Under the pieces are notes generated by a model. The model saw only the letters and a list, made by a program, of their open reading frames with translations, was not told where the DNA came from and did not search any database. DNA of 64,000 bases from a virus: the IMG/VR virus record IMGVR_UViG_3300034102_003517, positions 1 to 64,000 of that record; one strand, given 5' to 3'. Shown in pieces: positions 12,701 through 57,497 of this stretch. A program made the translations under genes and the position numbers. Each line of letters begins with the position of its first letter. Position 1 is the first letter of the stretch.

Positions 12701-13174
12701 ATGAAAAAAATTGTTAGACTAACTGAATCCGATTTAGTTAATATCGTAAAAAGAGTAATCGAGGAACAAACTACACCAGCTGTTATTGATGCTGGATATA
12801 GTCGTGATATGCAAGATTACGCTATTGTACTTTCTCAACCAACTATCGCTGGTGGTTCAGGTTACAAGGGAACAGTGACTGCTCAGGTTAAATTCAACGG
12901 AGTTAGAATCAAAGATAATGGATCTCCTGTAACAAAAGGAAACATTGTTCTTTATGCCGCATGTGGTCCTAGCGCCAATCCAGGGGCATTAAGTCCAAGA
13001 AGTTCTGCGGATGTTTTCGAAGGTGGTAGTACTTATGTTTTTGGAAGAGGTAGTGTAGTAGATAAAATGGTTAGAAATTTTTGTCAATCTAAAGGTCAAC
13101 CTAGTTCACCAACTGCAGGAAATGCTGTAAATTACATTGGAGATGCTAAAAAAGCATTATCAATGTCAAAATAA
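12701..13174 (+). CDS. Putative capsid-targeted protein with N-terminal IVRLTESDL peptide (copy 1)
   Basis: 157 residues. Residues 1-23 share the pattern M-x-K-IVRLTESDL-x-x-IV-x-RVI-x-E-Q with the gene at 14362, while the rest of the two proteins is unrelated. The shared peptide is amphipathic and ends in I20-E21-E22, matching the [I/L]-x-E cleavage rule of T4-type prohead proteases. The body is rich in Gly/Ser and beta strands. The gene has its own upstream AT-rich element and a terminator. Inferred, not shown: an internal virion protein delivered with DNA. Enzymatic function not recognised. Confidence 0.65.
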   Translation: MKKIVRLTESDLVNIVKRVIEEQTTPAVIDAGYSRDMQDYAIVLSQPTIAGGSGYKGTVTAQVKFNGVRIKDNGSPVTKGNIVLYAACGPSANPGALSPRSSADVFEGGSTYVFGRGSVVDKMVRNFCQSKGQPSSPTAGNAVNYIGDAKKALSMSK

Positions 13175-13191
13175 TTAAAAAACTAATTGAA

Positions 13192-13222
13192 CAAAAAACC
13201 CTCCGAAAAGAGGGTTTTTTTG
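13192..13222. terminator. Bidirectional rho-independent terminator
   Basis: Inverted repeat ACCCTC-CGAAAA-GAGGGT flanked by an A-run and a T-run, between the convergent genes ending at 13174 and 13235. It can serve both strands. Confidence 0.85.
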
Positions 13223-13234
13223 TTTTGGGTAATA

Positions 13235-13678
13235 TTACATATTTACTACTGCCGCGTAAGTACGGTTATTATCTTTGAAGACTACAATCAAATCTTTGTT
13301 TGTTGATTTCATTTTATTAATTACAAAAGTCATCGTACCAAAATCTTCAGTCACAACATCAAATTTTGTAAAGTATGTCTCATCTTCCAAATTTGTAATC
13401 TTGTATACCACTTCTTTACGGTCTTTTGATCCCGATTCCAAAGTAATATAATTGTGGGTCAATGTTTTTTTATCTAAGTTGATCTCGTAAAGATTAAATC
13501 CATCTGATTGTAGAACTTGACCCACAGTCTTACCCTTTAAAAGATCCTCAGGATTGATATTTTTATTTGTAATGTCAAAATAATCAAAACCACCCAAAGT
13601 ATGGAAGTTCAAATTTGCTTGAGAGAAAACAGTAATTGTTGAGAATAATGCGAAAACTAAGGTCAATAAATTTTTCAT
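13235..13678 (-). CDS. Secreted small protein with Bacteroidota-type signal peptide
   Basis: 147 residues from the ATG at 13678; this start puts a clear signal peptide at the N-terminus (MKNLLTLVFALFSTITVFSQ) and leaves a promoter upstream, while a longer frame would begin upstream of that promoter. The mature part includes NINPEDLLKGKTVGQ, similar to RISPKDLL in the secreted protein at 14763. A TTG-N18-TATCTTTG host-type promoter precedes it. Function unknown; export to periplasm or surface predicted. A superinfection or envelope role is speculation. Confidence 0.75.
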   Translation of the reverse strand: MKNLLTLVFALFSTITVFSQANLNFHTLGGFDYFDITNKNINPEDLLKGKTVGQVLQSDGFNLYEINLDKKTLTHNYITLESGSKDRKEVVYKITNLEDETYFTKFDVVTEDFGTMTFVINKMKSTNKDLIVVFKDNNRTYAAVVNM

Positions 13679-13715
13679 GTTATTTGGTTTAAAGGGTTTA
13701 TGAATGATTACACTA

Positions 13716-13746
13716 CAAAGATAAGACCTTTTTTTGATTTGCAAAA
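13716..13746 (-). promoter_or_regulatory. Bacteroidota-type promoter of the secreted protein gene
   Basis: On the minus strand TATCTTTG (13716-13723) fits the TAnnTTTG -7 element, and TTTTG (13742-13746) the -33 element, with an 18-base spacer. About 37 bases remain to the ATG at 13678. Confidence 0.75.
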
Positions 13747-13803
13747 CACTTTTAAAAATATTTTAAAAAAAATATCCCACCATAATTAAATGATGGGATT
13801 AAT

Positions 13804-14221
13804 TGGTGGACCTAGAGGGCTCCGACTCCCTCGTCCGGCTCGTCTTGTCTAAGAGACAACTACATGTTTAGGATAAGGTTTTTCATACCTTCCAAAATAT
13901 TTGGTTCCTATTTTAACATCGTTACCAAAAACTGTGTCGAGTTCACTTTTGTTACGGTAGACCTCTGAACGAGACCGTTTGTTTCTTTTTGGGTAGAAAC
14001 CACACCTTAAGGATTTCTGTTGCTAGGTTATGTATCCACCGACCCCCCGTTTCCGTACTTAAATTAAGCTACAGTAACTTCTTGAGTTGAGATAAGTCCC
14101 AAAGTCTCAAGGTTGTTTAGCACATTGCCAGTTGTTGTTCGAATCAGTTTTTAACGAGATTAATTCAGTCCCGACATGCTTCTTTTATTCAACCAACGCC
14201 CGTCAAATCCAATATAGGCCC
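13804..14221 (-). ncRNA. ssrA: Transfer-messenger RNA (tmRNA)
   Basis: 418 bases. The 5' end GGGCCTA pairs with TAGGTCC before the encoded CCA, giving a 7-bp acceptor stem with the G3-U70 wobble read by alanyl-tRNA synthetase. Just inside is the conserved TGGATTTGACGGG block, then GCATGTCGGGA, and near the 3' end TAAACATGTAG, all as in bacterial tmRNA. From a resume codon GGC at tmRNA position 93 an open frame of 21 codons begins GNVLNNLETL and ends STQEVTVA before TAA. The tag is longer than the usual ten or so residues and does not end in LAA. The T-arm is atypical: an 8-base loop AGTCGGAG instead of TTCRANY. tmRNA with SmpB rescues stalled ribosomes. A host-type promoter lies 30-odd bases upstream. 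The call is secure; tag frame is inferred. Confidence 0.95.
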
Positions 14222-14257
14222 ATATATCTTAATTGACTACTTCAAAGAATAATAATA

Positions 14258-14288
14258 CAAATATAAATATTATATCCTAAAAAATCAA
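14258..14288 (-). promoter_or_regulatory. Bacteroidota-type promoter of the tmRNA
   Basis: Minus strand: TTG (14286-14288), 20-base spacer, TATATTTG (14258-14265). Initiation a few bases downstream would leave a leader of about 30 bases for RNase P to remove from the tmRNA 5' end at 14221. Confidence 0.8.
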
Positions 14289-14315
14289 ATTAATTAATTT
14301 TTTTACTTAAAACAA

Positions 14316-14325
14316 TATACTTATA
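14316..14325 (+). promoter_or_regulatory. TATACTTATA, variant of the TATTTATA element
   Basis: Lies 36 bases before the ATG at 14362, a spacing like that of TATTTATA before the related gene at 12701 (41 bases). One substitution from the common form. Confidence 0.3.
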
Positions 14326-14361
14326 GAATATAGTAAATAAAATTATATTAAAATATTAATT

Positions 14362-14715
14362 ATGAGTAAAATTGTAAGATTAACTGAAAGTGACTTGAAA
14401 AGAATCGTATCCAGAGTAATCAACGAACAAGAAGTGATGGATTGGGCGCAATATTCTGTAGCTGCGGAAAAAAATAGAAAAGGAATGCGTATTGCTAATA
14501 CTGGAAACAATGGTGCCGACGGAGTCGGGTTTGATTTAAAACAGTGGAGTCAAGATTTAGGATGGATAAATGATAGAAGTGGAAAAGATTATACTTATTC
14601 ATGTAAAACTGGTCAGATAGTGGATGAAAGTAATCAACCTATTTCTTCCATGGTGGTTTCTCAACTAACTTTAAATCACCCTAATTGGAAGGGGACCCTT
14701 AAATCCGATTGTTAA
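14362..14715 (+). CDS. Putative capsid-targeted protein with N-terminal IVRLTESDL peptide (copy 2)
   Basis: 117 residues. Residues 1-23 are nearly identical to the gene at 12701 (KIVRLTESDL, then RVINEQ), with I20-N21-E22 as a prohead-protease-like cleavage site. The remainder (MDWAQYSVAAEKNRKG ... GVGFDLKQWSQDLGW ... LTLNHPNWKGTLKSDC) shows no resemblance to copy 1 and is not recognised. The head-to-head position with the tmRNA promoter and a strong terminator mark it as an independent unit. Predicted virion-internal or processed protein; function unknown. Confidence 0.65.
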   Translation: MSKIVRLTESDLKRIVSRVINEQEVMDWAQYSVAAEKNRKGMRIANTGNNGADGVGFDLKQWSQDLGWINDRSGKDYTYSCKTGQIVDESNQPISSMVVSQLTLNHPNWKGTLKSDC

Positions 14716-14735: not shown

Positions 14736-14764
14736 AAAAAAGGTGGGTATACCCACCTTTTTTT
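14736..14764. terminator. Bidirectional rho-independent terminator
   Basis: AGGTGGGT-ATACCCACCT forms a near-perfect palindrome flanked by A6 and T7 runs, between convergent genes ending at 14715 and 14763. Confidence 0.85.
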
Positions 14765-15203
14765 ATTTTATAGATATACTACTTACCTCTTCTAAAATTA
14801 AATTAGATAAGTTATCCTGACCTCCCCAATACCAATAATAATAACATATTGTATCACTTACAAATTGATGGGTAACTAGAGGGAATCCGTCTCTTAAATC
14901 TTTTTCAATAAAGGTTAATTTAATTAAACTTCCTTCAATCTTTTCGACTTTGGTTATACTTAAAGAACTCTGAAGAGAATCATTAATATAAAATTTACAA
15001 ATATTACTATCTAAATCAAAAACTTTTTTATACTTACTTGGCTCACTTGCATACATCGAGGAGGTATCGAGTAATAAATCCTTTGGTGATATTCTACCTT
15101 CAGAAATAAAAAATTTAGTTTTTTCAAATTCAACCGTAATAACTTGTGAAATTGAAAAAAAAGATGATAAAAAAATTAATAGAGTTATAGAAAATTTTTG
15201 CAT
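14763..15203 (-). CDS. Second secreted small protein with signal peptide
   Basis: 146 residues. Signal peptide MQKFSITLLIFLSSFFSISQ, then a mature region with KTKFFISEGRISPKDLLLDT; the ISPKDLL segment resembles INPEDLL in the 13235 protein, and lengths match, so the two may be distant paralogues. A TATATTTG -7 element lies 36 bases upstream. It and its partner flank the tmRNA and the copy-2 gene. Function unknown. Confidence 0.7.
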   Translation of the reverse strand: MQKFSITLLIFLSSFFSISQVITVEFEKTKFFISEGRISPKDLLLDTSSMYASEPSKYKKVFDLDSNICKFYINDSLQSSLSITKVEKIEGSLIKLTFIEKDLRDGFPLVTHQFVSDTICYYYWYWGGQDNLSNLILEEVSSISIK

Positions 15204-22536: not shown

Positions 22537-22952
22537 ATTTGATTTATGTAAATGAGCTAGGACCTAATTACAAAGGTGATAACATTTACGAATTTATATT
22601 TTCGGATATTAATGATGTGTGGGGTGAAGATTGGGATGCAACACCATCAGGTGGAAAACCACTCCCCCCTCAAATAGAATTTATAAAAAAGGTTGGGGTT
22701 TTAAGAAACTCAGAAATAGAATTAGAACTGATACAACAGTCTGATTATTTTGGAGTATATGATGCAGTAGATGGTGTTATTGGGTTAGCTTGGGAAAAAT
22801 CTGATTCTGACTCAGTTACATTCAACAAGTATAAAAGATTAGTTTTTCACTTTGGTGAAACAGACGAATCTGTAGAAAACAAACTTTACGAAAGAGATGT
22901 CGTATTAAAATGGGAAAAAAATTTAGTCAAAGATGAAACACATGAATCCTAA
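22533..22952 (+). CDS. Conserved-looking virion or packaging accessory protein
   Basis: 139 residues. Start overlaps the preceding stop (ATGA). Contains IYVNELGPNYKGDNIYEFIF and GEDWDATPSGGKPLPPQIEF. Fold not recognised. Operon position between a scaffold-like gene and the terminase suggests a packaging or neck role, inferred only. Confidence 0.6.
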   Translation: MNLIYVNELGPNYKGDNIYEFIFSDINDVWGEDWDATPSGGKPLPPQIEFIKKVGVLRNSEIELELIQQSDYFGVYDAVDGVIGLAWEKSDSDSVTFNKYKRLVFHFGETDESVENKLYERDVVLKWEKNLVKDETHES

Positions 22953-23451
22953 ATTAGTTAAACTTTTACATGAAGGTTTTTCTATGAATACATTAGAAAA
23001 ACTAAACGAAAACCAGTTAAATGTTCTTTTTAAAAGAATAAATGAGCAAAAAGGTAAGGTAACAGTTTCTTCAGATAAGTTGGGGACTGTCGATCTTAAA
23101 AAAATGACAGACTCAGGTGTTGATGTTGAGGTTAAAGAAGAGGAGACTGAAGTAAAGGAGAAGTCAGTTTCCCAACAACAACAAAAAATAATGGGATTGG
23201 CACTTTCAGTGAAAAAAGGAGATACTGCAAAATCTAAAGTTTCTAAAGAAGTAAAGAAAATGGCTAAAGACATGACTTACAAAGAATTAGAAGACTTTGC
23301 ATCGACTAAAAGAAAAGGGTTACCCAAGAAAAAAGAAACGGACGAAGAAGTTAAAAATCTTGAAGAGGGTATTCTTAGAATATTACAAAATCATTTACCT
23401 CCACATACCACAAAAGGTGAACTTCTCGATGTAATTCGTAGAAGAAATTAA
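22933..23451 (+). CDS. Basic protein directly upstream of the terminase
   Basis: 172 residues, Lys-rich, helical. N-terminal 40 residues include LEKLNENQLNVLFKRINEQK with L-N-E and I-N-E sites like T4-type prohead cleavage sites. Its place six bases before the large terminase is where a small terminase subunit often lies, but no DNA-binding motif was recognised, so this is only a possibility. The C-terminus contains HLPPHTTKGELLDVIRRR. Confidence 0.6.
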   Translation: MKHMNPKLVKLLHEGFSMNTLEKLNENQLNVLFKRINEQKGKVTVSSDKLGTVDLKKMTDSGVDVEVKEEETEVKEKSVSQQQQKIMGLALSVKKGDTAKSKVSKEVKKMAKDMTYKELEDFASTKRKGLPKKKETDEEVKNLEEGILRILQNHLPPHTTKGELLDVIRRRN

Positions 23452-27110: not shown

Positions 27111-27842
27111 ATGAACACTTTTGGCACTATAAAAACAAAAATAGAAAAAGCATCTATCGGTTTATACGGAAAACCTGAATTTAAATCTTTTTTGAAACAA
27201 TTTAAATCAATGGTTTTAGAAAACAAAGACATTGCTGAGTTATATTATATCTACGATGATTTATCTTCTAACAAGGGTATTAATGAATCTATCGCCGAAG
27301 ATTACATAAATGAAACTGTTGAGTATTCTCAAATTTTAGTTGAAGGTAATTCAAAACATATTACAAAGGTAAGTAATTGGATTGATTCTATTGTATTGGA
27401 ACATACTAATGAATACAAGGATATTGATAATACGATATATAAGAAATCAATCAAAGACCTATCCACGGTTTTAGAATCTAAAAGAAAAATTAAGTCTAAT
27501 ATTATTTTAGAAGAAAAGAAAGAAGATATAATAGAAAGCGTTAACTTACCAATTTCAACAATGGTTAAGGTTGCTGAAGAAAATATTAAATTAGAATTAA
27601 AAAATATTTCAGAATCAGAAAGAAAAGTTATAGAGGAGTTGTCATCTATGTCGGATGAAGAAATCAAAACCGAAATGGACCAACTTAAAGAAAATGTTAT
27701 TTCTAATTTGAAATCTACTTTGAACGAATCGACAGAATCTGATTTAAAATCAACAATAGAAAATACAATCAAAAAAATTAATGAATCACCTTATGATAGA
27801 TTCAATCTTTATAAGTTGAGGGGTTTAAGTCAAGGATTATGA
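27111..27842 (+). CDS. Coiled-coil-rich head protein, possible prohead core component
   Basis: 243 residues, almost wholly helical and rich in Glu, Lys, Ser. Includes several [I/L]-x-E sites (GINESIAED, YINETVEY, KKINESPYD) like those cut by prohead proteases. Located between portal and protease genes, where T4 keeps its core genes gp67 and gp68. Core role inferred from place and composition. Confidence 0.65.
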   Translation: MNTFGTIKTKIEKASIGLYGKPEFKSFLKQFKSMVLENKDIAELYYIYDDLSSNKGINESIAEDYINETVEYSQILVEGNSKHITKVSNWIDSIVLEHTNEYKDIDNTIYKKSIKDLSTVLESKRKIKSNIILEEKKEDIIESVNLPISTMVKVAEENIKLELKNISESERKVIEELSSMSDEEIKTEMDQLKENVISNLKSTLNESTESDLKSTIENTIKKINESPYDRFNLYKLRGLSQGL

Positions 27843-28838: not shown

Positions 28839-29546
28839 ATGAAAATTTTAGGACCGAATGATAGTGGTAAAGGAATACTTGTAGAATGGGATGCTGGATT
28901 CATCAATCCAAATGATGAGAGAAATACCGATATAATAAAAGAATCTTACGGACAGTTAGAACACTCAAAACCTTTTGTGTTCTATGCGACATTACAAAAA
29001 CACGGAGTACCTAACAGAAACGGTAGGGTTTATCCTGAAAACATATTAAGAAGAGAGGCTGATAAGTATAAAGAACTTATTAATAAAGGGATGTCGATTT
29101 CTGAATTAAACCATCCTGAGTCTTCATTAATTGACTTAGATAGAGTATCACATCTTATTACTGACATATGGTGGGAAAACAATGTTTTAATGGGTAAGAT
29201 TAAATTATTAACCACTCCAGGTTTTCACGAAAGAGGTATAGTGTCATCCAAAGGAGATGTTGCAGCAAACATGATGAGACAGGGTGTTACTATGGGTGTA
29301 TCTTCTCGTGGTGTTGGTTCTTTGGTAAAAAAAGGTGAGCAAAATGAAGTACAGGATGATTTTGAATTAATTTGTTTTGATCTTGTTTCTTCACCGTCAA
29401 CGCCAGGAGCTTACCTTTACTTAAACAAGGAAGACCGACCAAAGTATGAAGAAAAACTTGCCGAACATGATAAAAGTAATTTTTCAGGTAGTGGTTTAGA
29501 GAAATCTGTTGACTTAATGAAAAGATTGACCGATTATTTAAAATAA
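28839..29546 (+). CDS. Prohead protease (T4 gp21-like, S77-type)
   Basis: 235 residues. Catalytic His in ISELNHPES (His92) and Ser in VTMGVSSRGVG (Ser155 or 156), plus DLVSSPSTPGAYL, all typical of the T4 gp21 serine protease. It would cleave scaffold and capsid precursors at [I/L]-x-E sites. One such site is present in the major capsid protein here (LINE-A at residue 60). Sits between portal and scaffold genes as in T4. Confidence 0.92.
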   Translation: MKILGPNDSGKGILVEWDAGFINPNDERNTDIIKESYGQLEHSKPFVFYATLQKHGVPNRNGRVYPENILRREADKYKELINKGMSISELNHPESSLIDLDRVSHLITDIWWENNVLMGKIKLLTTPGFHERGIVSSKGDVAANMMRQGVTMGVSSRGVGSLVKKGEQNEVQDDFELICFDLVSSPSTPGAYLYLNKEDRPKYEEKLAEHDKSNFSGSGLEKSVDLMKRLTDYLK

Positions 29547-29923: not shown

Positions 29924-31453
29924 ATGAGTACAGAAAAAACAGGATCGATAGTTGAACAAACCTTATTACAAATTAAGGCTGTTGAAAATGCTATCAGTGA
30001 AAATGCAAAAGGAATACTTGCTTCTACAATGAAACAAGAAATCAGCGAATTAGTTAGAGAGTCTTTAGTAGATTCAAAACAAACAAAAAAACCCCTAAAC
30101 GAACAAGAAGAGCCTGAAATGGAAGAACCTGTAGTTGCGACTGCAGATGACGAAGAAGAAGAGGCTGTAATTGATGTTGAAGACGAGGGGGGAGAACCTG
30201 AATCAGAATATGTCTTTGGTATGGATTCCGAAGATGGTGAAGAAGAAGGTGATAATGAAATGGAAATGCCTCCACTTGACATGACTTCGGCATCACCTGA
30301 CGAAGTTTTGAAAGTTTTCAAAGCTATGGGTGATGAAGATGGAATTATAGTTAAGAAGGATGATGATTATATTCACTTGATCGATGATGAAGATGAGTAT
30401 TTGATTCAAACTGGAGACATGGACGATAATACAGAAGAACCAATGTTGGATTTAGAAGAAAGTGTTATCTACGAAATTGAAATGGAAGAAGGTGATTATC
30501 ACATGGAAGAACAAGAATTTGAAGAAGGTGATTATCACATGGAAGAACAAGAATTTGAAGAAGGTGATTATCACATGGAAGAAATGTACATGGAAGAAGG
30601 AGACTATATGGTTGACTTGGATAATGTACAATTCGGACAAGATGATTTTTCAAATGTTGAAGAAGAATCCATTTATGAAATCGATGAAGAAGATCTTCAC
30701 TCAGTAGTAGAAGCATTTAAAGCAGTAGGAATGGGAATGGGTAAAGTAGGAACAGGAATGGCTAAAACTTCAGTTAATAACAAAGGGTTCAAAGAAGACC
30801 AACCACAAGGCACAAAAGGTGTTGGAATGGGTAAAGCAAGTAAATTTAAATATCCTAAAATTAAACATGGAGTTACTGAAACCGAAACTGAAGAGGCATT
30901 CGAAGGTTGGGATATGGAAGAAGATGTTGATTTGGTAGATATTGAAGCTACTGGAGGTATGATGGAACCTGAAACAACTGAAGCGTCAAGAACTATGACA
31001 TATAGAAGAAGAGCTGAAAGAGACAGAGTGGCAGCACCAAGTCAGTTAAGAAAAGAATCTGTAGAAAGAGAACTTGATTTAATTAAAGAGAAAAACGAAG
31101 AATACAAAAAAGCTTTGAATTTCTTTAGATCTAAGTTAAATGAAGTTGCAGTATTCAATTCAAACTTGGCATATGCTACAAGATTGTTCACTGAACATTC
31201 CACTACAAAACAAGAAAAAATAAATATTCTAAGAAGATTTGATAATGTAGAATCTATCAAGGAATCTAAAACACTTTACAAGTCAATTAAAAATGAATTA
31301 GATGGTAAAGGTGGTGAGATGGTAACTGAGTCAGTTCAGACAAAAGTTAATAGAACACCAGCTAACGGATCATCAACAAACTTAATTGAAAGTAAAACTT
31401 ATGAGAATCCTCAATTCATGAGAATGAGAGATTTGATGTCAAAAATTAAATAA
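29924..31453 (+). CDS. Prohead core scaffold protein (acidic, T4 gp22-like role)
   Basis: 509 residues from ATG 29924 (MSTEKTGSIVEQ); a TTG 12 bases earlier is in frame but less likely. The middle is extremely acidic (DDEEEEAVIDVEDEGGEPES) with tandem EEGDYHMEEQEF repeats, and the C-terminal 130 residues are coiled (VERELDLIKEKNEEYKKALN) ending in QFMRMRDLMSKIK. An L-N-E site near residue 60 and other [I/L]-x-E sites would allow proteolysis. Position between protease and capsid genes matches T4 gp22. Sequence identity to gp22 not claimed. Confidence 0.8.
   Translation: MSTEKTGSIVEQTLLQIKAVENAISENAKGILASTMKQEISELVRESLVDSKQTKKPLNEQEEPEMEEPVVATADDEEEEAVIDVEDEGGEPESEYVFGMDSEDGEEEGDNEMEMPPLDMTSASPDEVLKVFKAMGDEDGIIVKKDDDYIHLIDDEDEYLIQTGDMDDNTEEPMLDLEESVIYEIEMEEGDYHMEEQEFEEGDYHMEEQEFEEGDYHMEEMYMEEGDYMVDLDNVQFGQDDFSNVEEESIYEIDEEDLHSVVEAFKAVGMGMGKVGTGMAKTSVNNKGFKEDQPQGTKGVGMGKASKFKYPKIKHGVTETETEEAFEGWDMEEDVDLVDIEATGGMMEPETTEASRTMTYRRRAERDRVAAPSQLRKESVERELDLIKEKNEEYKKALNFFRSKLNEVAVFNSNLAYATRLFTEHSTTKQEKINILRRFDNVESIKESKTLYKSIKNELDGKGGEMVTESVQTKVNRTPANGSSTNLIESKTYENPQFMRMRDLMSKIK
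30485..30582 (+). repeat. 36-bp tandem coding repeat in scaffold
   Basis: Two complete and one partial, nearly identical 36-bp units starting GAAGAAGGTGATTATCACAT encode EEGDYHMEEQEF. The near identity suggests recent duplication. Confidence 0.9.
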
Positions 31454-31484: not shown

Positions 31485-33311
31485 ATGGGAGCATTATTAG
31501 AATCAGGTCTTGTTGGTAACATCGGGTTGAAACACCTTAAAGTTATCAAAGAAGATACAATTAACAAATGGGATAAATTAGGATTCCTAGATGGTCTTAA
31601 AGGACACATTAAAGAGAACATGGCTCAATTATATGAGAACCAAGCATCTCACCTTATTAACGAAGCGGCTTCAACTGATAGCTCAGGTTCATTCGAAACT
31701 GTAGTTTTCCCTATCGTAAGACGCGTATTCTCTAAATTGTTAGCTAATGATTTAGTATCTGTACAAGCAATGAACTTACCTATCGGTAAATTGTTCTACT
31801 TTGTACCTAAAATCCAAGGTTACCAAGCGGCAGCTAATAACCAAATACAACACTTTCCACCACTTGGTTCACCCGCTACTTTAGTAGGTGATGCTACTGC
31901 AACTCAAGGACAAGGTTACGGATCAACTAGTACATACGGTGGTACTAACTTGTATGACTTATTCTATGAAGGAAATGAGCCAGGATTAGATCCTGCAGGT
32001 TTATTTGACTATTCAAAAGGAGCTTATACGGCAATTACTTCAAGTGCTGTTGGCACTGTAGTTTGGAATGGTTACAATTTAGTGTCTTCTGGTTATTCAG
32101 CAGGTGAGTACAGAAAAGTATTAATCGGTTTATCAGGTTTCTCTAATGCGGGTGCTGGTAAATTAATTGGACCTGATGGTCAGGAAATGGATAATGAAGC
32201 ATTCTTATCTGACTTACAAGTAAATGCTGTACAAGCGGGTGTTAATGGTTTCTCAGGTTTAGGTACTAGTGATATTCTTTTCAGAGTTGTTACTCAAAAA
32301 TATGGTAAAGGTATTGTACAATATGGTACACAAGCAAATACAACTTGGTCATCTACAGGTAACGGAGGTTCTTATGATAACCTTTGTTCACAAGATGGTA
32401 TCATCTATTTAGAGTTGGATCTACAAGTTCCTGCAACTATCGGTACAGGTTCAATTGACGGATATTCAGGGTTCACTTTACCAATTACTGGTCTTGCCAC
32501 TGCAGGAGCTGCGTTTACATGTACATTCAGAAGATACAAAGAATTGGAATTCGAAGATGAGATCGGTGAAGTATCTTTTGACCTTGAGTCAGTTACTGTA
32601 TCTGTTACAGAAAGAAAACTAAGAGCACAATGGTCTCCTGAATTAGCTCAAGATGTATCTGCATTCCACAATATCGATGCTGAAGCTGAATTAACAGCTT
32701 TATTATCTGAGCAAGTGGCGGCAGAAATTGATCGTGAAATTCTTCGTGATTTGAGAAAAGGCGCAGCTTGGACACTTCGTTGGGATTACAACGGATGGAA
32801 AAGAGGTACTACTGCAAATCCATTAACTCAGTACACTCAAAAAGACTGGAACCAAACATTAATCACTGCGATTAACCAAATTTCGGCACAAATCCACAAA
32901 TCTACTTTGAGAGGTGGAGCTAACTGGATCGTAGTTTCTTCTGAAATTTCAGCTATTTTTGATGACTTAGAATACTTCCATGTATCTAACGCTTCACCGG
33001 AGCAAGATCAATACAACATGGGTATTGAAAGAGTTGGTACATTAGCTGGTCGTTACCAAGTTTACCGTGATCCTTACTTCCCACCAAACACAGTATTGTT
33101 GGGTCACAAAGGAACATCATTGTTAGACACTGGTTATGTTTACGCACCGTATGTACCTCTACAATTAACACCTACAATGTATAACCCATTCAACTTTACA
33201 CCAATCAAAGGTATCATGACAAGATACGCTAAGAAAATGGTTAACAACCGTTTCTATGGTAGAATCACAGTTGATGGAGTTAGAACATTTGACTTAAGAG
33301 AATTGAGATAA
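31485..33311 (+). CDS. Major capsid protein (T4 gp23-like)
   Basis: 608 residues. N-terminal propeptide of 60 residues ends HLINE, followed by AASTDSSGSFETVVFPIVRRVF, matching the E65 cleavage region of T4 gp23. Further family marks: LVSVQAMNLPIGKLFYF, VTVSVTERKLRAQWSPELAQD, EAELTALLSEQVAAEIDREIL, GTLAGRYQVYRDPYFP, and the C-terminal RYAKKMVNNRFYGRI. Follows the scaffold gene by 31 bases and is closed by a strong terminator. Codon use looks less AT-extreme than neighbours, as expected for a highly expressed gene. Confidence 0.95.
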   Translation: MGALLESGLVGNIGLKHLKVIKEDTINKWDKLGFLDGLKGHIKENMAQLYENQASHLINEAASTDSSGSFETVVFPIVRRVFSKLLANDLVSVQAMNLPIGKLFYFVPKIQGYQAAANNQIQHFPPLGSPATLVGDATATQGQGYGSTSTYGGTNLYDLFYEGNEPGLDPAGLFDYSKGAYTAITSSAVGTVVWNGYNLVSSGYSAGEYRKVLIGLSGFSNAGAGKLIGPDGQEMDNEAFLSDLQVNAVQAGVNGFSGLGTSDILFRVVTQKYGKGIVQYGTQANTTWSSTGNGGSYDNLCSQDGIIYLELDLQVPATIGTGSIDGYSGFTLPITGLATAGAAFTCTFRRYKELEFEDEIGEVSFDLESVTVSVTERKLRAQWSPELAQDVSAFHNIDAEAELTALLSEQVAAEIDREILRDLRKGAAWTLRWDYNGWKRGTTANPLTQYTQKDWNQTLITAINQISAQIHKSTLRGGANWIVVSSEISAIFDDLEYFHVSNASPEQDQYNMGIERVGTLAGRYQVYRDPYFPPNTVLLGHKGTSLLDTGYVYAPYVPLQLTPTMYNPFNFTPIKGIMTRYAKKMVNNRFYGRITVDGVRTFDLRELR

Positions 33312-33381: not shown

Positions 33382-34107
33382 ATGAACCAACAAGAAAAGT
33401 TTTTTTTATTAAACGAAGTTACCTCAACAAATACAGGGTCAAGAGGAAGTTATGTCGGTCGTTTACAATCAGGAATTAGATATTTTAAAAAGAAAGATTT
33501 AGGTCCGTTTACCGAAAATGTTTCGGACTATAAAAGTCCTGATTTAGAATATGATTCATATGATGGAAAAATGGAAAGAAGTAAAAAACAAATAGGTAAG
33601 AAAGAAAAAATTGCAAAAAAAATCTATAACTATATTAAAAATAACCCCCAATCAACTTTTAGTGATACCGAAGGTAACCCAATAAATCGGTTTCCTGGAA
33701 AAAATACAAATATAGTACCGATTAAAGAATGGGTGGAATTAGATAAAATTAATTTAAATGAAGATTTGGCGGTTTGGTTTGGAACAAAGAAAAAACCTAA
33801 AGGATCAAAACAACCAAAAGGACCATGGGTTAACATATGTAGAAAAGTAGATGGTAAACACCCACCATGTGGAAGACCTGACACATCTAAAGGTGCTTAT
33901 CCTAAGTGTAGGGCAGCTGGTGTTGCTGGTAAAATGAGTGATTCGGCTAAAAAGGCCGCTTGCCAACAAAAAAGAAAGGCCGAGAAAAAAGACACCCAAA
34001 CAGGTAAAGGTCAAAAACCAATTATGACATCATACAAACCAAAAAACAAAAGGACCCAAAATGAGTCCTTAGAAAAAATTATTAAAAATATTTTAAGTTC
34101 ACTTTAA
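33382..34107 (+). CDS. DUF5872-like Cys-containing protein
   Basis: 241 residues. The central part DLAVWFGTKKKPKGSKQPKG, then GPWVNIC, HPPCGRPDTSKGAYPKCRAA and KKAACQQKRKAEKK matches the basic, Cys-containing DUF5872-type domain of large phages. N-terminal FFLLNEV has L10-N11-E12, a possible prohead-protease site. C-terminal helix SLEKIIKNILSSL. Function unknown; likely zinc-binding and nucleic-acid-associated given its charge. Converges with the next minus-strand gene with four bases of overlap. Confidence 0.7.
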   Translation: MNQQEKFFLLNEVTSTNTGSRGSYVGRLQSGIRYFKKKDLGPFTENVSDYKSPDLEYDSYDGKMERSKKQIGKKEKIAKKIYNYIKNNPQSTFSDTEGNPINRFPGKNTNIVPIKEWVELDKINLNEDLAVWFGTKKKPKGSKQPKGPWVNICRKVDGKHPPCGRPDTSKGAYPKCRAAGVAGKMSDSAKKAACQQKRKAEKKDTQTGKGQKPIMTSYKPKNKRTQNESLEKIIKNILSSL

Positions 34108-34571
34108 CAATAAGTTCCTGAACATCTTTTTTGACCATCAAGTCCTTTTATTTTTCCTTTACATACTTGTATTGCGTACCCATTGGCATAAGCTGAAGGA
34201 TACACATCATATTTTGCTTTAGCTGCCGACTTACCTCTTGCACAAAGTTTAGTCCCTGTTTTTTTTCTACCCTCAATCATCATCATATCCTCGTCATCGA
34301 TATTCATAGAAAGTTCCATACCATCTTTTTTTGATTCATTCATCAAAAAATCAAAAACTTGATCCATGTTGTTTTTAGCCTCTGCGATATGATCTTGGGC
34401 CCAATCGTGACCATTTTCTAAAATACTCTCCACCATGTTTGGGTCTAAATCTAACAATAGATCACATTGTCTTCTCATCTGTTGTAAATTAGAAAAAAAC
34501 ATGTATCTTGAATTGTTCATTCTATGATCTTCATTTAATACTTTTCTTATTATTCTTTCTATGTTGCCCAT
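34104..34571 (-). CDS. Protein with short [L]-x-E N-terminus and Cys-rich basic C-terminus
   Basis: 155 residues. The first 14 residues MGNIERIIRKVLNE are amphipathic and end in L-N-E. C-terminal part KLCARGKSAAKAKYDVYPSA, AYANGYAIQVCKGKIKG and RCSGTYC resembles the small basic Cys domains found beside DUF5872 in T4-like phages. Together with its convergent neighbour it may enter the capsid. Not characterised. Confidence 0.65.
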   Translation of the reverse strand: MGNIERIIRKVLNEDHRMNNSRYMFFSNLQQMRRQCDLLLDLDPNMVESILENGHDWAQDHIAEAKNNMDQVFDFLMNESKKDGMELSMNIDDEDMMMIEGRKKTGTKLCARGKSAAKAKYDVYPSAYANGYAIQVCKGKIKGLDGQKRCSGTYC

Positions 34572-40198: not shown

Positions 40199-40942
40199 TT
40201 ATTCATTATGAATCTTTTTCAGTGTCTCTAAGTATAAAACTTTGAATTTTTTCAAGTAAATTCTAATCTCTTTTGTGTTCAAATTTGTCATTTCTCTTAA
40301 CGACAGCAACACTATATTTTTATTAAATTTATTGTTATCATTACCAATAAAAATATTCCCATAATTATCAAAAAGCTCTATTAGAGCGTACCCTAATTTT
40401 AGTTCGTTCTCATTATCAACATTTGTTGATACATATAATTTGAGGTCTTTTAAAAAGATCGCTATAATTTTTTCGGCGTCTATTTTTTCAAACTCCATGT
40501 AATAAACCATATCGGGTCTATTTTCTAAAGTTGAGGAAATGTCTTCATATGAAATTTTACGATTGGTTTCTTTTTGGTCTTTTAAAATTTGGCCCATTAG
40601 ATAATTTTTACAAATCGTACCAAAATATGAATATGCTTTTTTATTTTTAGCGGGTTTGAATTTATCCACTTTGGTCATTAAAAATGAATGAGTATCACTA
40701 TGTACATCATTATAATCCATGTCTTTTCTATATAATTTATACCTTCGTATAATAGACTCGATCATTTTGTCGAGTGGTTCACGAAGGTATGTATTATATA
40801 TTTTTTCTTTTTCCTCGTAAGTTTCGGCAACTATATAATTTTTAACCGCTTCTTCTTCACGAACATCAAAATAATTTTTATTTTTTGCTTTCGTCTTTTG
40901 CTTTTCGTCTTGTGGATTGATTGATTCAACACCTAATGACAT
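40199..40942 (-). CDS. Phage sigma factor, late-transcription type (gp55-like)
   Basis: 247 residues. A sigma-70 region 2 pattern spans residues of about 55-125: MIESIIRRYKLYRKDMDYND, then FLMTKVDKFKPAKNKKAYSY and FGTICKNYLMGQILKD, with the aromatic DNA-melting residues. No clear region 4 is seen, as in T4 gp55, which reads a single -10-like element. Its ATG overlaps the stop of the upstream glycosyltransferase. Candidate reader of the TATTTAT elements. Confidence 0.85.
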   Translation of the reverse strand: MSLGVESINPQDEKQKTKAKNKNYFDVREEEAVKNYIVAETYEEKEKIYNTYLREPLDKMIESIIRRYKLYRKDMDYNDVHSDTHSFLMTKVDKFKPAKNKKAYSYFGTICKNYLMGQILKDQKETNRKISYEDISSTLENRPDMVYYMEFEKIDAEKIIAIFLKDLKLYVSTNVDNENELKLGYALIELFDNYGNIFIGNDNNKFNKNIVLLSLREMTNLNTKEIRIYLKKFKVLYLETLKKIHNE

Positions 40943-41754
40943 TAAACCGTTTCTGATACATATTTTATTTCTCTATCAGAAGTGAAAAAATGTTCTTTCT
41001 TTGCCGACTCTAACCAAAATTTAATTTCGTTCTCAGTCAGACTAGGTTGACCATATTTGTAATTCCAAAAAATAGACCCTTCTCTCATGTTCATATGTTT
41101 GTAACCAATTCTTGGAATTGTCATTATTTTAGCTGAGTTGTATGTCAATCTTAAAAGGAACTCATATACAAAAGTTAACTTAATTGAAGGTTTGAAACCA
41201 CCATTTTCATTAAAAGTATTTTTTCTTATAACCATACCACTTGATTGGAAGTTTTGGTATGTCATTAATAAGTCGTTACTAAGGATTCCCATTTCCGAAT
41301 TCATGCTTACTGCGAAAGTTGCTTCATTAGTAAACCCTGCGAACACCCCTTTATCGTCAATATCAATAACCAACGGAAGATACGCATCAACCTCATTACC
41401 ATATGATTTTACATATCTATCTACACTTTTAAACCATATTGAGGAATACTCATCATCAAACTCTAAAATAGAAACCCATTCACCGTTCGATTCATTAACT
41501 CCTAAATTTACCTGAGATGCAAAATCAAATGAACCATTGTTCTCTACTAATTTTACATTAATACCATTAAAATCATATGATTGTAAAAACGACTTTAATT
41601 TTTCTTCGGTTGAGTGTACTACGATTAATTCAGTTATACCAATAATTTGGTTTTCTACTGATTTAACTGACTTACTGAATAAGTCTTCAAAATCTTTTGT
41701 CATAGATGTATTTACTGGTAAGATTACCGAAACATCAAATTTATTTTTTTCCAT
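40942..41754 (-). CDS. Family 2 glycosyltransferase
   Basis: 270 residues. DVSVILPVNTSMTKDFEDLF at the start, then NLGVNESNGEWVSILEFDDE supplies the DXD-type acidic motif. A C-terminal half with VIRKNTFNENGGF fits GT-A transferases. Between the sigma gene and a GT4-like gene, three bases from the latter. Donor unknown. Confidence 0.8.
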   Translation of the reverse strand: MEKNKFDVSVILPVNTSMTKDFEDLFSKSVKSVENQIIGITELIVVHSTEEKLKSFLQSYDFNGINVKLVENNGSFDFASQVNLGVNESNGEWVSILEFDDEYSSIWFKSVDRYVKSYGNEVDAYLPLVIDIDDKGVFAGFTNEATFAVSMNSEMGILSNDLLMTYQNFQSSGMVIRKNTFNENGGFKPSIKLTFVYEFLLRLTYNSAKIMTIPRIGYKHMNMREGSIFWNYKYGQPSLTENEIKFWLESAKKEHFFTSDREIKYVSETV

Positions 41755-41756
41755 AA

Positions 41757-42821
41757 TTAATTATTTTCTGATACTTTTATTTTTTCTAATTGTTCTTCAA
41801 AGATTTGAGATCTGGTTTTTAAATACCCATCAAATAATTCAACAACAGATGATTCGAATTTATCTTGGTCTTGGTATTCTTCTCCTGTTAATGACATATT
41901 AACATGAAGAGTTTCTGATATATTATCCTCTAACCAATTTTGAGTAAAGTTTGCAACAACATCAATAATCTCATTGTAATTATTAACCCATAACCCGTTT
42001 TCTTCAGTCATCCATGTAGGTTTTAAATTAGGGATTTTTCCAATTACAGGGGTTCCTGAAATCATAGACTCTAAAGGGAATGTACCAAACCCACTTTCAT
42101 TATCAACCCAAATGGAAAGATACGATTCTTGTAAAAAGGTTGCGAAATCATCTTGTTTTATTCCTCTCATATCTCTAAATGTGATCCATCTAAATTGTGG
42201 ATATTTAAGGTAAAAACTTTTTATTATTTTTGCAGTGTCTCTTGGTTCTCTGGTGTGGATTGCGATAATTGGTTTTGACGGTCTTTCTTTTTTCTTGAAA
42301 ACTGAAGGAATATTTACATTTAATACATCAAAACTACCTGATCTCATAATTTCTGAAATGTATTTTTTTTGGAAATCTGATGTTGTGATACATTTAGTAA
42401 ACCCGTATTGGGACCATGTCGTACCTGGCGATAATGTCTCTAACATATAGTCATATGCTTGACACAAAACAATTTTAGCACATGGGAAATTTTTTATTTG
42501 TTCCATCACATGTGAGTATAGTTCAGGTATAACAATAAAATCTTCAGGTGAAATTGCTAAGTTTTGACCGTCTATCGGAAGATGTGGAATTTTCATGTAT
42601 TCTTCATCTAACCATTCTGATACACCTGTATAATCTGTAGTTTCGTGAATAATTGTAGGGTTGAATCCATTTTTTAATAAAGTTAGTGCTATGTCGTAAA
42701 TATATCTAACAGATGCCTTTGGATTTCCTTTGGTGTCTTGCACCATAAAGTAGATTCTCGATTTTCTTGATTTAAGGTTCTCAATCGAACCCTCAACCTT
42801 TTGTATTTTTTCTAATTCCAT
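41757..42821 (-). CDS. GT4-like glycosyltransferase
   Basis: 354 residues. N-terminal Rossmann half with RIYFMVQDTKGNPKASVRYI and later DFIVIPELYSH; C-terminal half with IAIHTREPRDTAKII and ESGFGTFPLESMISGTPVIG, the donor-binding motif of GT4 enzymes. A GT-B retaining transferase. Acceptor unknown. Confidence 0.8.
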   Translation of the reverse strand: MELEKIQKVEGSIENLKSRKSRIYFMVQDTKGNPKASVRYIYDIALTLLKNGFNPTIIHETTDYTGVSEWLDEEYMKIPHLPIDGQNLAISPEDFIVIPELYSHVMEQIKNFPCAKIVLCQAYDYMLETLSPGTTWSQYGFTKCITTSDFQKKYISEIMRSGSFDVLNVNIPSVFKKKERPSKPIIAIHTREPRDTAKIIKSFYLKYPQFRWITFRDMRGIKQDDFATFLQESYLSIWVDNESGFGTFPLESMISGTPVIGKIPNLKPTWMTEENGLWVNNYNEIIDVVANFTQNWLEDNISETLHVNMSLTGEEYQDQDKFESSVVELFDGYLKTRSQIFEEQLEKIKVSENN

Positions 42822-42824
42822 GTT

Positions 42825-43133
42825 TTATAAATGTTTTATTATTTTATTCATTAATAATGTATTAAATGCAAATTTAAATGGTAAAGATAAATTTTTAGCA
42901 CTATGAATACCTAAATTCTCATCCATTTCCTCTCTTTCAGTCAAAACGACCTCAATTAAAAATTTGAATGTGTCGTATCTTGTAACACTTATTTGTTGTT
43001 CAGGTTCCTCTGATTTTTCTTCAGTCTCTTTTTTACCTTTTTTAGGTAAAGGTATTTTGGATTTAGTCATACTAACTTGATGTTCTAATTCATCAATGTC
43101 TATATAGTATTTTTCTCCTAAAAAATCTAACAT
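42825..43133 (-). CDS. Unknown small protein
   Basis: 102 residues with a charged centre (PKKGKKETEEKSEEPEQQ) and hydrophobic ends. Seven-base overlap with the HAD-like gene. Operon-linked; not recognised. Confidence 0.6.
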   Translation of the reverse strand: MLDFLGEKYYIDIDELEHQVSMTKSKIPLPKKGKKETEEKSEEPEQQISVTRYDTFKFLIEVVLTEREEMDENLGIHSAKNLSLPFKFAFNTLLMNKIIKHL

Positions 43134-43786
43134 AATTTTAATTTTTTTAGTAATTCGTCAAATTCACCTAAAGACGAAATCTCGTAGTTACACTTAACTG
43201 ATTTATTATATTCTGTAATATATTTTACAACTATTTTATCTGACGGAGCATTTGTTATATTTTCAGGATTTGATGTCAGTAACACATCGACATTATCCCA
43301 CAATCTGTTTTTGGTTGACATGGAATAGAATATTACCGATTCAACTAATGACCCGAATTTTGATAAAAAAAATAATGTCGCTGGTTTAGACCTCCCTATT
43401 TCATCTGAGATTATGATCACATCACATGAATCACGGTGGTCAAGATAAAGATTATTTAACTCATTAAAAGTAAATGTTTCTGATGATCCGGCGTGACCAA
43501 ATATTTGCATTACAAAATCTTCATACATGAAACTATAAAGTTCATCGTTATTTTTAAATTTAAAATGGTCCATTAAATTTAGACTGGTTACATCTGATAA
43601 TATTTCATACTTAAATTCATTTTCTTCATTATGTTCAAAAGTGTTACCGGACATGTCCAAATCAAAAGTTTTACCTAATGATTCTGAGTCTTGCTCCTCT
43701 ATAAAATGTTTCTCATACAGTTGCGTAAACTTTCCTAAAGTATCTCTTAATACACCGTTAACCTCAATTCCTACTCTCTTCGTCAT
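43127..43786 (-). CDS. HAD-like protein with altered motif I
   Basis: 219 residues. VGIEVNGVLRDTLGKF occupies the motif I position of HAD phosphatases, where DxDx(T/V) is expected, but the nucleophilic Asp is Glu. Later IIISDEIGRSKPATLFFLSK fits motif III, and DNVDVLLTSNPENI resembles motif IV. The Glu suggests a weak or lost phosphatase activity. Overlaps the PhoH-like gene by 23 bases. Confidence 0.6.
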   Translation of the reverse strand: MTKRVGIEVNGVLRDTLGKFTQLYEKHFIEEQDSESLGKTFDLDMSGNTFEHNEENEFKYEILSDVTSLNLMDHFKFKNNDELYSFMYEDFVMQIFGHAGSSETFTFNELNNLYLDHRDSCDVIIISDEIGRSKPATLFFLSKFGSLVESVIFYSMSTKNRLWDNVDVLLTSNPENITNAPSDKIVVKYITEYNKSVKCNYEISSLGEFDELLKKLKLC

Positions 43787-44504
43787 ATTTTTCTAATATT
43801 TTACTAATAAGTGGATTTCTCACATTTTTAGCGTTTCTGAAATCATACACGCCGACATCGTTAATATTTTGAAATCGTTGTAATGCGTCGTACAATCCGG
43901 ATTGTTTTTTATCTTTATACCTATCAGTCTGTTCTAAATCTCCCGATATAAAAAATTTACTATTAAACCCGATTCTTGTCAATAGTAGTTTCATTTGATT
44001 AGGTGTTGCGTTTTGGGCCTCTTCAAAAATTAAAATCGAGTTATCGATATTCATTCCCCTCATATATGCTAAAGCGAATACCTCAATAATTTCAGATTCT
44101 TTTAATTTTTCTCTAGCCTCTTTTCCTATGATCTTATTAAGTAGATAGTAGGATGGAAAAATGTACGGGTCTAACTTTTCTTCTAAGTTTCCAGGTAGAG
44201 AACCTAATTTTTCCTCAGCTTCAACTGCGGGTCTTACAATGATTATCTTTTCATAAGAGTTATTTGGGTCCATAAGTAAGTCAACTGCCGCCCTCATGGA
44301 AATATAGCTTTTACCAACACCTGCAGGTCCTGAACATATGGTGATTTGGTTATTAATTAAGATATCGTAATACTCTTTTTGGTTATCTGATAAAAATTTA
44401 TTTTTTTGTTTTCTTTTAATGACTGAATTAATAAAATCTTTTTTTGATATAGTTTTTGGAATTAATGATTCCTCAGGTGTTTGGATTGTTCTTTTTCTTG
44501 TCAT
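43764..44504 (-). CDS. phoH: PhoH-like ATPase
   Basis: 246 residues. Walker A SGPAGVGKSYISMRAAV, then KIIIVRPAVEAEEKLGSLPG, Walker B SILIFEEAQNATPNQMK, and FISGDLEQTDR. The PhoH domain is common in large phages; an RNA helicase/ATPase role has been proposed. N-terminal TRKRTIQTPEESLIPKTISK is an added basic tail. Confidence 0.92.
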   Translation of the reverse strand: MTRKRTIQTPEESLIPKTISKKDFINSVIKRKQKNKFLSDNQKEYYDILINNQITICSGPAGVGKSYISMRAAVDLLMDPNNSYEKIIIVRPAVEAEEKLGSLPGNLEEKLDPYIFPSYYLLNKIIGKEAREKLKESEIIEVFALAYMRGMNIDNSILIFEEAQNATPNQMKLLLTRIGFNSKFFISGDLEQTDRYKDKKQSGLYDALQRFQNINDVGVYDFRNAKNVRNPLISKILEKYDEESRN

Positions 44505-44511
44505 TTATTTA

Positions 44512-45492
44512 TTATTTGTTTTTATAGTAGTTTAACCAATACTCAATCATTTCATCTAACATAGATTCAAAAGTGTATTTTGGTTTCCAACCTAAATCAT
44601 TTGTTAATTTTGAAGAGTCCCCCTTAAGATTTTCAAGTTCTTCGGGCCTAAAGTGTTTCTCGTCAATAACAACATAATCTTTATATTCTAAACCTAAAGT
44701 ACTAAAGGTATACTCACATAAATCTTTTACCGTGTGTGAAACTCCTGTCGCACACACATAATCATTAGGGTTGTCCGATTGTAACATTAACCACATAGCT
44801 TCAACATAATCTTTAGCATGACCCCAATCTCTGGATGCTTCTAAATTACCTATGTGTAATTTTTCTTGTAGACCTAAACTGATTCTAACTGCCGCCTTAA
44901 CCACTTTATTTGTTACAAAATTTGTACCTCTTCTTGGTGACTCATGGTTAAATAAAATACCATTCCATATTTTCATGTTATATGCGTTTCTATAATTTCT
45001 ACAAATATTATATGAGAATACTTTGGCACAACCATAAGGTGAAACTGGATTCATCGGTGTTGTTTCTCTTTGAAGTCCATCCTTATCTATTGAATTACCG
45101 AACATCTCGGATGAAGATGCTTGATAAATTTTAATTTCAGGATTTACAAGTTTAACCGCTTCTAAAATATTCAGAGTACCTAACCCCGTAACATTTGCAG
45201 TGTATATCGGTTGATCGAAAGAAATTCTAACATGCGATTGTGCTGCTAAATTATAAACCTCATCGGGTTTAATTTCACTAATAACTCTTATTAGTGATGA
45301 TAAATCCGTTAAGTCTGCGTAATGCAATATTAATTTGTCAAATACATTATCCAAACGAGAAGTTTGATTTTCAGAAACAGAGTTTCTTTTTAATGTGCCA
45401 TGCACTTCATATCCTTTTTCTAATAATAACTCAGATAAGTAAGATCCGTCCTGACCATTTATACCTGTTATTAATGCAATCTTTTTACTCAT
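44512..45492 (-). CDS. gmd: GDP-mannose 4,6-dehydratase
   Basis: 326 residues, normal for Gmd. NADP-binding ALITGINGQDGSYLSELLLE, the Gmd-specific GTLKRNS and HYADLTD, catalytic Thr/Tyr-Lys region in YQASSSEMFG and PVSPYGCAKVF, then GILFNHESPRRGTNFVTNK and DWGHAKDYVEAMW. Converts GDP-D-mannose to GDP-4-keto-6-deoxymannose, entry to fucose, rhamnose, perosamine and colitose. Here its neighbours favour colitose. Overlaps the ColD-like gene by 8 bases. Confidence 0.95.
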   Translation of the reverse strand: MSKKIALITGINGQDGSYLSELLLEKGYEVHGTLKRNSVSENQTSRLDNVFDKLILHYADLTDLSSLIRVISEIKPDEVYNLAAQSHVRISFDQPIYTANVTGLGTLNILEAVKLVNPEIKIYQASSSEMFGNSIDKDGLQRETTPMNPVSPYGCAKVFSYNICRNYRNAYNMKIWNGILFNHESPRRGTNFVTNKVVKAAVRISLGLQEKLHIGNLEASRDWGHAKDYVEAMWLMLQSDNPNDYVCATGVSHTVKDLCEYTFSTLGLEYKDYVVIDEKHFRPEELENLKGDSSKLTNDLGWKPKYTFESMLDEMIEYWLNYYKNK

Positions 45493-46639: not shown

Positions 46640-46645
46640 AATGTC

Positions 46646-47572: not shown

Positions 47573-47591
47573 TTTTTGTTTTTTATTAAGT

Positions 47592-48356: not shown

Positions 48357-48437
48357 ATTTTACTGTATATTTTTTTATTTCAAAATAACATATAAACCCC
48401 ATAAAATAAACACAAGTATTATCTATTTGACTTAGAG

Positions 48438-49268: not shown

Positions 49269-49277
49269 TATAAAAAA

Positions 49278-51247: not shown

Positions 51248-51249
51248 AT

Positions 51250-52817: not shown

Positions 52818-52829
52818 TTTAAAAAATTT

Positions 52830-55017: not shown

Positions 55018-55021
55018 AAGT

Positions 55022-57496: not shown

Positions 57497-57497
57497 T

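Follow-up and report, generated by a model that had tools for sequence, protein, structure and literature searches.

The window analysed here, a stretch of 64,000 nucleotides corresponding to positions 1 to 64,000 of the IMG/VR virus record IMGVR_UViG_3300034102_003517 (166,385 bases in whole), carries two plus-strand open reading frames (ORFs) that open with the same peptide and have no detectable likeness beyond it. These are ORF 12701-13174 (gene 1, a protein of 157 amino acids) and ORF 14362-14715 (gene 2, 117 amino acids), and the common part covers their first 22-23 residues (RLTESDL...RVI-x-E), followed in both by Q. The peptide, referred to below as the leader, and the proteins behind it, referred to as passengers, are arranged as follows:

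12701..12766, plus strand: leader of gene 1, residues 1-22, MKKIVRLTESDLVNIVKRVIEE, with a predicted cut after E22
12767..13174, plus strand: passenger of gene 1, 135 residues, predicted start Q23, no Pfam or PHROG match
14362..14427, plus strand: leader of gene 2, residues 1-22, MSKIVRLTESDLKRIVSRVINE, with a predicted cut after E22
14428..14715, plus strand: passenger of gene 2, 95 residues, no significant family match

That these two genes share about 23 N-terminal residues on otherwise unrelated proteins had been claimed in an earlier note on this DNA and was borne out: they are 72% identical across residues 1-25 (E 3.7e-4), and the rest of neither protein retrieved the other (phmmer, E<=1e-3). 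A search of the whole record with the first protein found no third copy of the leader (E<=0.001). The passenger of gene 1 has relatives only in loci L017, L063 and the near-identical L116, and the sole relative of the gene 2 passenger is a near-identical copy in L116; searching IMG/VR with both passengers returned nothing except the near-identical record. Phage-collection searches with the leader peptide gave no match, and with the whole first protein they gave five weak matches in the passenger part, mostly to tail fibre proteins. The structure model of gene 1 reached a mean predicted local distance difference test (pLDDT) score of 57, with a low-confidence helix at residues 9-21, and had no match in a PDB fold search (E<=0.001), and the model of gene 2 had a mean pLDDT of 37.

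Both leaders end in I-x-E, the cleavage rule of T4 gp21, as had been noted before, and the gp21-like protease and the capsid protein with LINE-A that accompanied this claim were likewise recovered, together with two further genes of the head module:

27111..27842, plus strand: candidate core protein near the protease, rich in [IL]xE by comparison with shuffles
28839..29546, plus strand: gp21-type prohead protease, the proposed cutter (Pfam Peptidase_S77, E 7.4e-22; PHROG head maturation protease, E 1.3e-42)
29924..31453, plus strand: acidic, [IL]xE-bearing scaffold-like protein between the protease and capsid genes
31485..31664, plus strand: propeptide of the gp23 capsid protein, ending LINE then A at residue 60 (HLINE then AAS)
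31485-33311, plus strand: whole gp23 capsid gene (E 1.3e-71)

With an S77 protease and gp23, the record is a T4-like phage. The best-covered relatives of its gp23 are those of an uncultured 484-kb phage, a Microcystis phage, Flavobacterium phage immuto and Rhodothermus phage RM378; from these relatives and from excerpts of a study of related-looking lake phages (PMC9723584), the hosts probably belong to the Bacteroidota. Among capsid N-termini, LINE is followed by A in 79/81 and by S in 2/81, and the protease carries its own I-I-K-E then S near its start. The [IL]xE motif occurs 274 times in 27 homologs of the candidate core protein, about twofold the 143.5 of shuffled sequences, and 603 times in 56 homologs of the scaffold-like protein vs 501 in shuffles. 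The scaffold-like protein also contains tandem acidic repeats at about 30460-30710 of the window (EEGDYHMEEQEF...), as does the ORF at 21244 (MEPEMGGEEPMG...).

The leader proved widespread among relatives. A scan of IMG/VR with a degenerate DNA pattern of the whole leader, which required the E, found at least 119 stretches; a second pattern, whose count is also a lower bound, covered the first half only, leaving residues 13-22 free and the E not required. Loci from both scans were pooled into 159 unique ORFs of at least 45 amino acids, and the ORF counts in this paragraph apply among the matches listed. I or L at residue 20 together with E at residue 22 was present in 146/159 leader ORFs, and [IL]xE lay inside residues 18-26 in 156/159. 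In rows from loci fetched by later searches only, I or L at 20 with E at 22 was found in 31/42 and [ILVM]xE inside residues 18-26 in 42/42, and longer leader forms, for example RLTESDLHRIIERSVSKILKE then G, retain the [I/L]xE ending. In 150/150 ORF rows the tag starts 3, 4 or 8 residues past the nearest upstream ATG. Entropy rose from 0.41 bits at E22 to 3.03, 3.60 and about 4 bits at the following positions, and the ratio of nonsynonymous to synonymous variation (pN/pS) was 0.28 for leader residues 2-22, 0.43 for residues 13-22, left free by the second pattern, and 1.09 for residues 23-33, directly past the leader. The leader evolves under protein-level constraint, and the next 11 residues do not.

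Applied to a genome collection of 84,980 species, the first-half pattern matched a single stretch, on a 3,195-base phage-like contig in a metagenome-assembled genome, whose adjoining ORF likewise opens with a leader-like peptide. Chance similarity of the two leaders was rejected, the leader being widespread in IMG/VR vs one stretch in that collection. Starting instead from the capsid gene, 44 records were obtained from 80 of at least 600 gp23 loci (record G009 among them was also found via the leader), and 22 of these carry the leader although most are short; the two longest hold 8 and 9 leader copies, the 8-copy record having also surfaced via the leader. A small control of eight crAss-like records (three of 94-103 kb) and immuto had the RLTESDL-class leader in 0/9, an empty result that in itself shows nothing.

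Tagged genes are clustered, reaching 9 within 15 kb and 8 within 8.7 kb, with different leader classes adjacent, and near-identical leaders occur within one locus. Such tandem arrays could be expected if the shared DNA were an element of recombination or translation that had spread from gene to gene and the peptide had no role. This explanation is disfavoured because codons vary while residues stay, synonymous sites differing widely, and different leader classes keep the same ending at the protein level; we regard it as highly improbable.

The earlier picture of one peptide on two genes turned out to be an underestimate, as the leaders of relatives fall into several classes and the passengers behind them into hundreds of families. 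In an analysis built without the motif, 2,736 distinct ORFs were grouped by the sequence past residue 30 into 1,233 families, and the first 32 residues were then compared across families, yet most of the loci had originally been fetched because of the leader. The largest cluster comprised 465 ORFs from 294 rest families and 176 loci, in which single linkage had joined the RLTESDL, EEKxRILxMH and ITESQ types (the second in the form ITEEEKxRILxMH...YLxE); by regular expression, the RLTESDL leader alone is found on 180 rest families. Smaller classes were MNKSYSKIRHIQEANxxLExRLLxE (10 families), RFxxLMESxxGNVKPLIxE (6 families), MNExQKAxxYxxLLNEHT... (6 families of very short ORFs) and NFDLKKFLVENKLTxNSxLIxE (4 families), besides many classes of two or three families, part of them with and part without the motif. 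The third of these classes may not be a leader, because its similarity runs past the motif. The last is that of Flavobacterium phage immuto 2-6A (NC_055915; host Flavobacterium sp. LMO8), in which KNV73_gp003, gp076, gp077 and gp092 share the leader NFDLKKFLVENKLT-x-N and the predicted cut of gp23 follows IVSE. The second-largest class overall consisted of Sec signal peptides (20 families) and served as an internal control.

The motif [ILM]xE was present at residues 10-34 in 263/294, 10/10, 6/6, 5/6 and 4/4 families of the non-Sec classes, and at residues 40-64 of the matching classes in 59/294, 1/10, 0/6, no data and 1/4; the Sec class had it in 3/20 families at residues 10-34 vs 6/20 at 40-64. 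When one ORF per family of at least 110 amino acids was tested with regular expressions, which were composed after the clusters had been viewed, [IL]xE fell at residues 16-35 in 126/137 RLTESDL families and in 8/8, 5/5, 3/3, 2/2 and 25/28 families of five other classes, and in untagged ORFs it occurred in 153/595 at residues 16-35 vs 128/595 at 41-60. Most leaders also have an earlier [ILM]xE at residues 3-16, which in the RLTESDL class was imposed by the search itself. Like Sec signal peptides, the leaders are exchangeable N-terminal peptides recovered by the same clustering, but unlike them they have no hydrophobic run, which was found in 2/294 families of the largest leader class vs 20/20 signal-peptide families; a Sec signal or lipoprotein leader was rejected for this reason. 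Beside the tagged genes of the window, minus-strand genes at 13235-13744 and 14763-15203 look like small secreted proteins with signal peptides in the style of Bacteroidota (...VFSQ, ...SISQ), and relatives have a class of such signal-peptide ORFs, 33 in number and spread over 28 loci.

Further evidence comes from genes in which the leader can be compared across homologs of one passenger, and from candidates elsewhere in the window:

34104..34571, minus strand: gene with a short leader, MGNIERIIRKVLNE then D, whose homologs open with a similarly short leader or with the RLTESDL leader
33382..34107, plus strand: gene adjoining gp23, with a 12-residue leader ending LLNE then V, and an internal LNE then DLAVWFG ahead of a basic domain
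22933..23451, plus strand: DUF3008 protein with an N-terminal part ending LFKRINE then Q, a candidate leader and a weaker case

Homologs of the gene at 34104 open either with MxNLxxIIKKVLKE or with a full RLTESDL-type leader, continue with a short linker and then run into the same YMFFSNL protein. By rule, the motif precedes the YMFFSNL block in 26/33; of the remaining seven, one is leaderless and several are only distantly related. A DHH-like enzyme, with a Pfam match under that family's cut-off, similarly begins with MKKLIKE then TGIRD or with MKIIITESQYKMLIKE then SGIRD, and E stands directly before the conserved block in 11/11 members; a twelfth sequence that fits the pattern is unrelated. 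In the gene after gp23, the leader varies freely among homologs from 7 to 46 residues; it runs up to [IL]xE in 30/45 when a strict rule is applied, and inspection by eye shows [IL]xE at the junction in 12 of the 15 others. Ahead of the DLAVWFG basic domain, E was present in 46/46 distinct junctions, with L, I or V at P3 in 44, and entropy farther upstream was 2.8-3.6 bits. As far as their sequences tell, these junctions behave like a protease site, the motif and the mature start being kept and the removed part free. The DLAVWFG domain is found alone behind a short leader and also inside longer proteins, and it looks as if it may be released by internal cutting.

Comparison of the sequences thus supports a modular, exchangeable N-terminal peptide under protein-level selection, carrying the gp21 motif where conservation stops, in a phage with a matching protease and capsid site. 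Removal of this tag by a protease is strongly supported because conservation ends after the E and [I/L]xE survives changes of length, because leaders are exchanged on one passenger and conserved domains start after the E, and because the lineage has both S77 and a capsid cut site, LINE then A/S; cleavage after [I/L]-x-E by the phage's own S77 protease is accordingly a strong prediction. The favoured reading, to which we assign a probability of about 0.75, is that the 22-residue peptide serves as an exchangeable capsid-targeting leader removed by a protease, with the role of the capsid-targeting sequence (CTS) of T4 but another sequence.

A competing explanation holds that the peptide is an uncut helix docking on an intracellular partner (RNA polymerase, the membrane or another phage protein), with the E ending the helix and the tagged proteins being host-takeover factors made after infection. 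T-E-S-D resembles a helix N-cap, the helix at residues 9-21 of the gene 1 model, at its low confidence, would suit this explanation, and cleavage at the leader is a prediction from sequence. An uncut helix would, however, leave it unexplained that unrelated leader classes share the same ending, that conserved domains begin exactly past the E behind leaders of 7-46 residues, and that the leader motif equals that of the capsid site, and we consider it unlikely.

The removed capsid-targeting leader has close counterparts in T4. According to excerpts of PMC9026906, T4 cuts at L/I-X-E and propeptides of 10-19 residues target its internal proteins, which agrees with what the earlier note had stated; T4 ipII and ipIII, as read from NC_000866, both start with MKTYQEFIAE then A. 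Excerpts of PMC9026906 and PMC3012670 further describe these internal proteins as exchanged among relatives, and together with PMC9391042, also in part, as injected to counter host defences, IPI blocking a restriction enzyme and IPIII being needed on one E. coli strain. As with the T4 CTS (IPI, IPII, IPIII and the Alt propeptide), a short N-terminal peptide ending in L/I-X-E is common to otherwise different proteins in a T4-like phage with an S77 prohead protease, and the passengers vary fast among relatives. Unlike in T4, the leader is longer (22 residues) and mostly has two [I/L]xE motifs, several unrelated classes stand side by side on hundreds of passenger families, and cutting is predicted from sequence and packaging from the T4 precedent; likeness to MKTYQEFIAE was not evident by eye against ipI, ipII and ipIII, and the leader was not filed as its relative. 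In the giant phage SPN3US, propeptides, some of 20 and 24 residues, are also removed by gp245 after a short E-ending motif, which differs in being A-X-E; the excerpted text (PMC10052503) lists only 8 head proteins with N-terminal propeptides and reports in that part no leader common to unrelated proteins.

By the mechanism proposed for the capsid-targeting leader, the peptide would fold into a short amphipathic helix, and docking of this helix on the prohead core would carry many small, unrelated proteins inside. The gp21-type S77 protease would then cut after [I/L]-x-E, and the mature proteins, beginning at residue 23, would stay beside the DNA in the head and pass into the host upon infection. 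Several sequence-unrelated leaders, including very short ones such as MKKLIKE, appear to serve the same function, and the lineage swaps them between passengers. The earlier note had suggested that the tagged proteins are packed into the head, processed and injected; the tag and its removal by a gp21-type protease are well supported by sequence comparison, whereas head packaging, retention of the mature proteins with the DNA and injection are extrapolated from T4 and may apply here.

The passengers were surveyed in 149 of 220 tagged families, the longest ones, chosen with the motif (set A4). They matched 13 Pfam families, most having no known family, and among those recognised, cell-wall enzymes and binding domains predominated (PG_binding_1 in 4, VanY, M23, LysM and lysozyme). 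L245:12866-14446 and other members of the set carry VanY, M23, LysM and PG_binding_1 behind leaders without a Sec signal; such peptidoglycan-active proteins could be virion-borne cell-wall enzymes or endolysins. It could also be that the leaders are cut in the prohead and the proteins are core or scaffold parts lost in maturation rather than retained, injected cargo: the same motif is cut in the T4 core proteins gp22, gp67 and gp68, which are then largely lost (PMC9026906, in excerpt), and the head-module genes 27111, 29924, 33382 and 34104 likewise hold many [IL]xE sites. Hundreds of unrelated, tandem-clustered passenger families nevertheless fit cargo better than a building block, which makes this explanation quite improbable beside that of a capsid-targeting leader on injected proteins.

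Several observations weigh against the capsid-targeting leader. Its most vulnerable part is the residue following the cut, which is A or S in the capsid and Q in 48, N in 25, S in 22, E in 19, D in 12 and A in 1 of 150 leaders. Tolerance of the protease at this position is plausible because the sites of the candidate core protein are mostly followed by S and N and the SPN3US protease prefers S there (PMC10052503, in excerpt). The ITESQ class has [IL]xE at residues 16-35 in 13/33 families only. Within this genome the motif shows no overall N-terminal enrichment (39/146 at residues 4-27 vs 38/146, 40/146, 33/140 and 19/131 further in), and therefore short leaders are not callable by motif alone. 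The passengers resembling cell-wall enzymes could be ordinary endolysins, the relative immuto has S77 and other leaders but none of the RLTESDL class, and no virion proteome was found, none of the papers listed being about the virion of immuto.

A last point of this kind is that S77 was not seen in 20/50 of the longest tagged records, the set covered by the test for S77 and gp23 (nine records of 61-70 kb and all shorter ones lie outside it). S77 was present in 30/50 (one weakly), gp23 in 30/50 (one below the cut-off) and both genes in 29. All six of the longest S77-negative records have proteins in common with this phage, in five cases with a gp6-like baseplate protein among them, and one, G010 (274 kb), ends where the head module is expected. 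The other fourteen have 1-68 proteins in common with it, in three cases no more than four (G001 1, G039 2, G046 4). The number is also very small in G002, where two of 24 core queries matched. The S77-negative tagged records are likely fragments. A second head-protease profile, phrog_3014, matched 1/22 records, and that one, G045, was already S77-positive. In record G050 (L311-L312), a 205-amino-acid ORF at 162839-163456 is similar only to the N-terminal portion of gp23 (tblastn, E 4.8e-8) and would be a truncated gp23 paralogue or a diverged head gene. Elsewhere in the window, a long minus-strand gene run at 40199-57500 resembles glycosyltransferases and sugar-nucleotide enzymes, judged by eye from the ORF list.

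The capsid-targeting leader is of a kind already known, but to our knowledge these sequences, the multiplicity of classes and the scale have not been described: no leader strings were found in the open-licence papers searched, and the titles and abstract openings of those listed on capsid targeting and on T4-like and Bacteroidetes/Flavobacterium phages describe no such leaders. A more speculative extension, possible and at present rather doubtful, is a leader code, in which several unrelated, interchangeable leaders, mostly with an early and a terminal [I/L]xE, each dock on a different core protein and load a large, fast-changing cargo arsenal, while internal [I/L]xE junctions release basic domains and the prohead acts as a processing chamber for multi-part cargo. 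If this were true, injected anti-host and anti-defence proteins could be predicted from the leaders by sequence alone. If the leaders act like those of T4, a simple sequence rule would flag hundreds of mostly unknown proteins of uncultured phages, with hosts probably in the Bacteroidota, as likely injected cargo, and would supply compact, ready-to-use tags with which foreign proteins could be loaded into the heads of these phages. Head cargo in this phage group becomes open to direct test, and a cultured relative with a leader class of its own, Flavobacterium phage immuto, is available.

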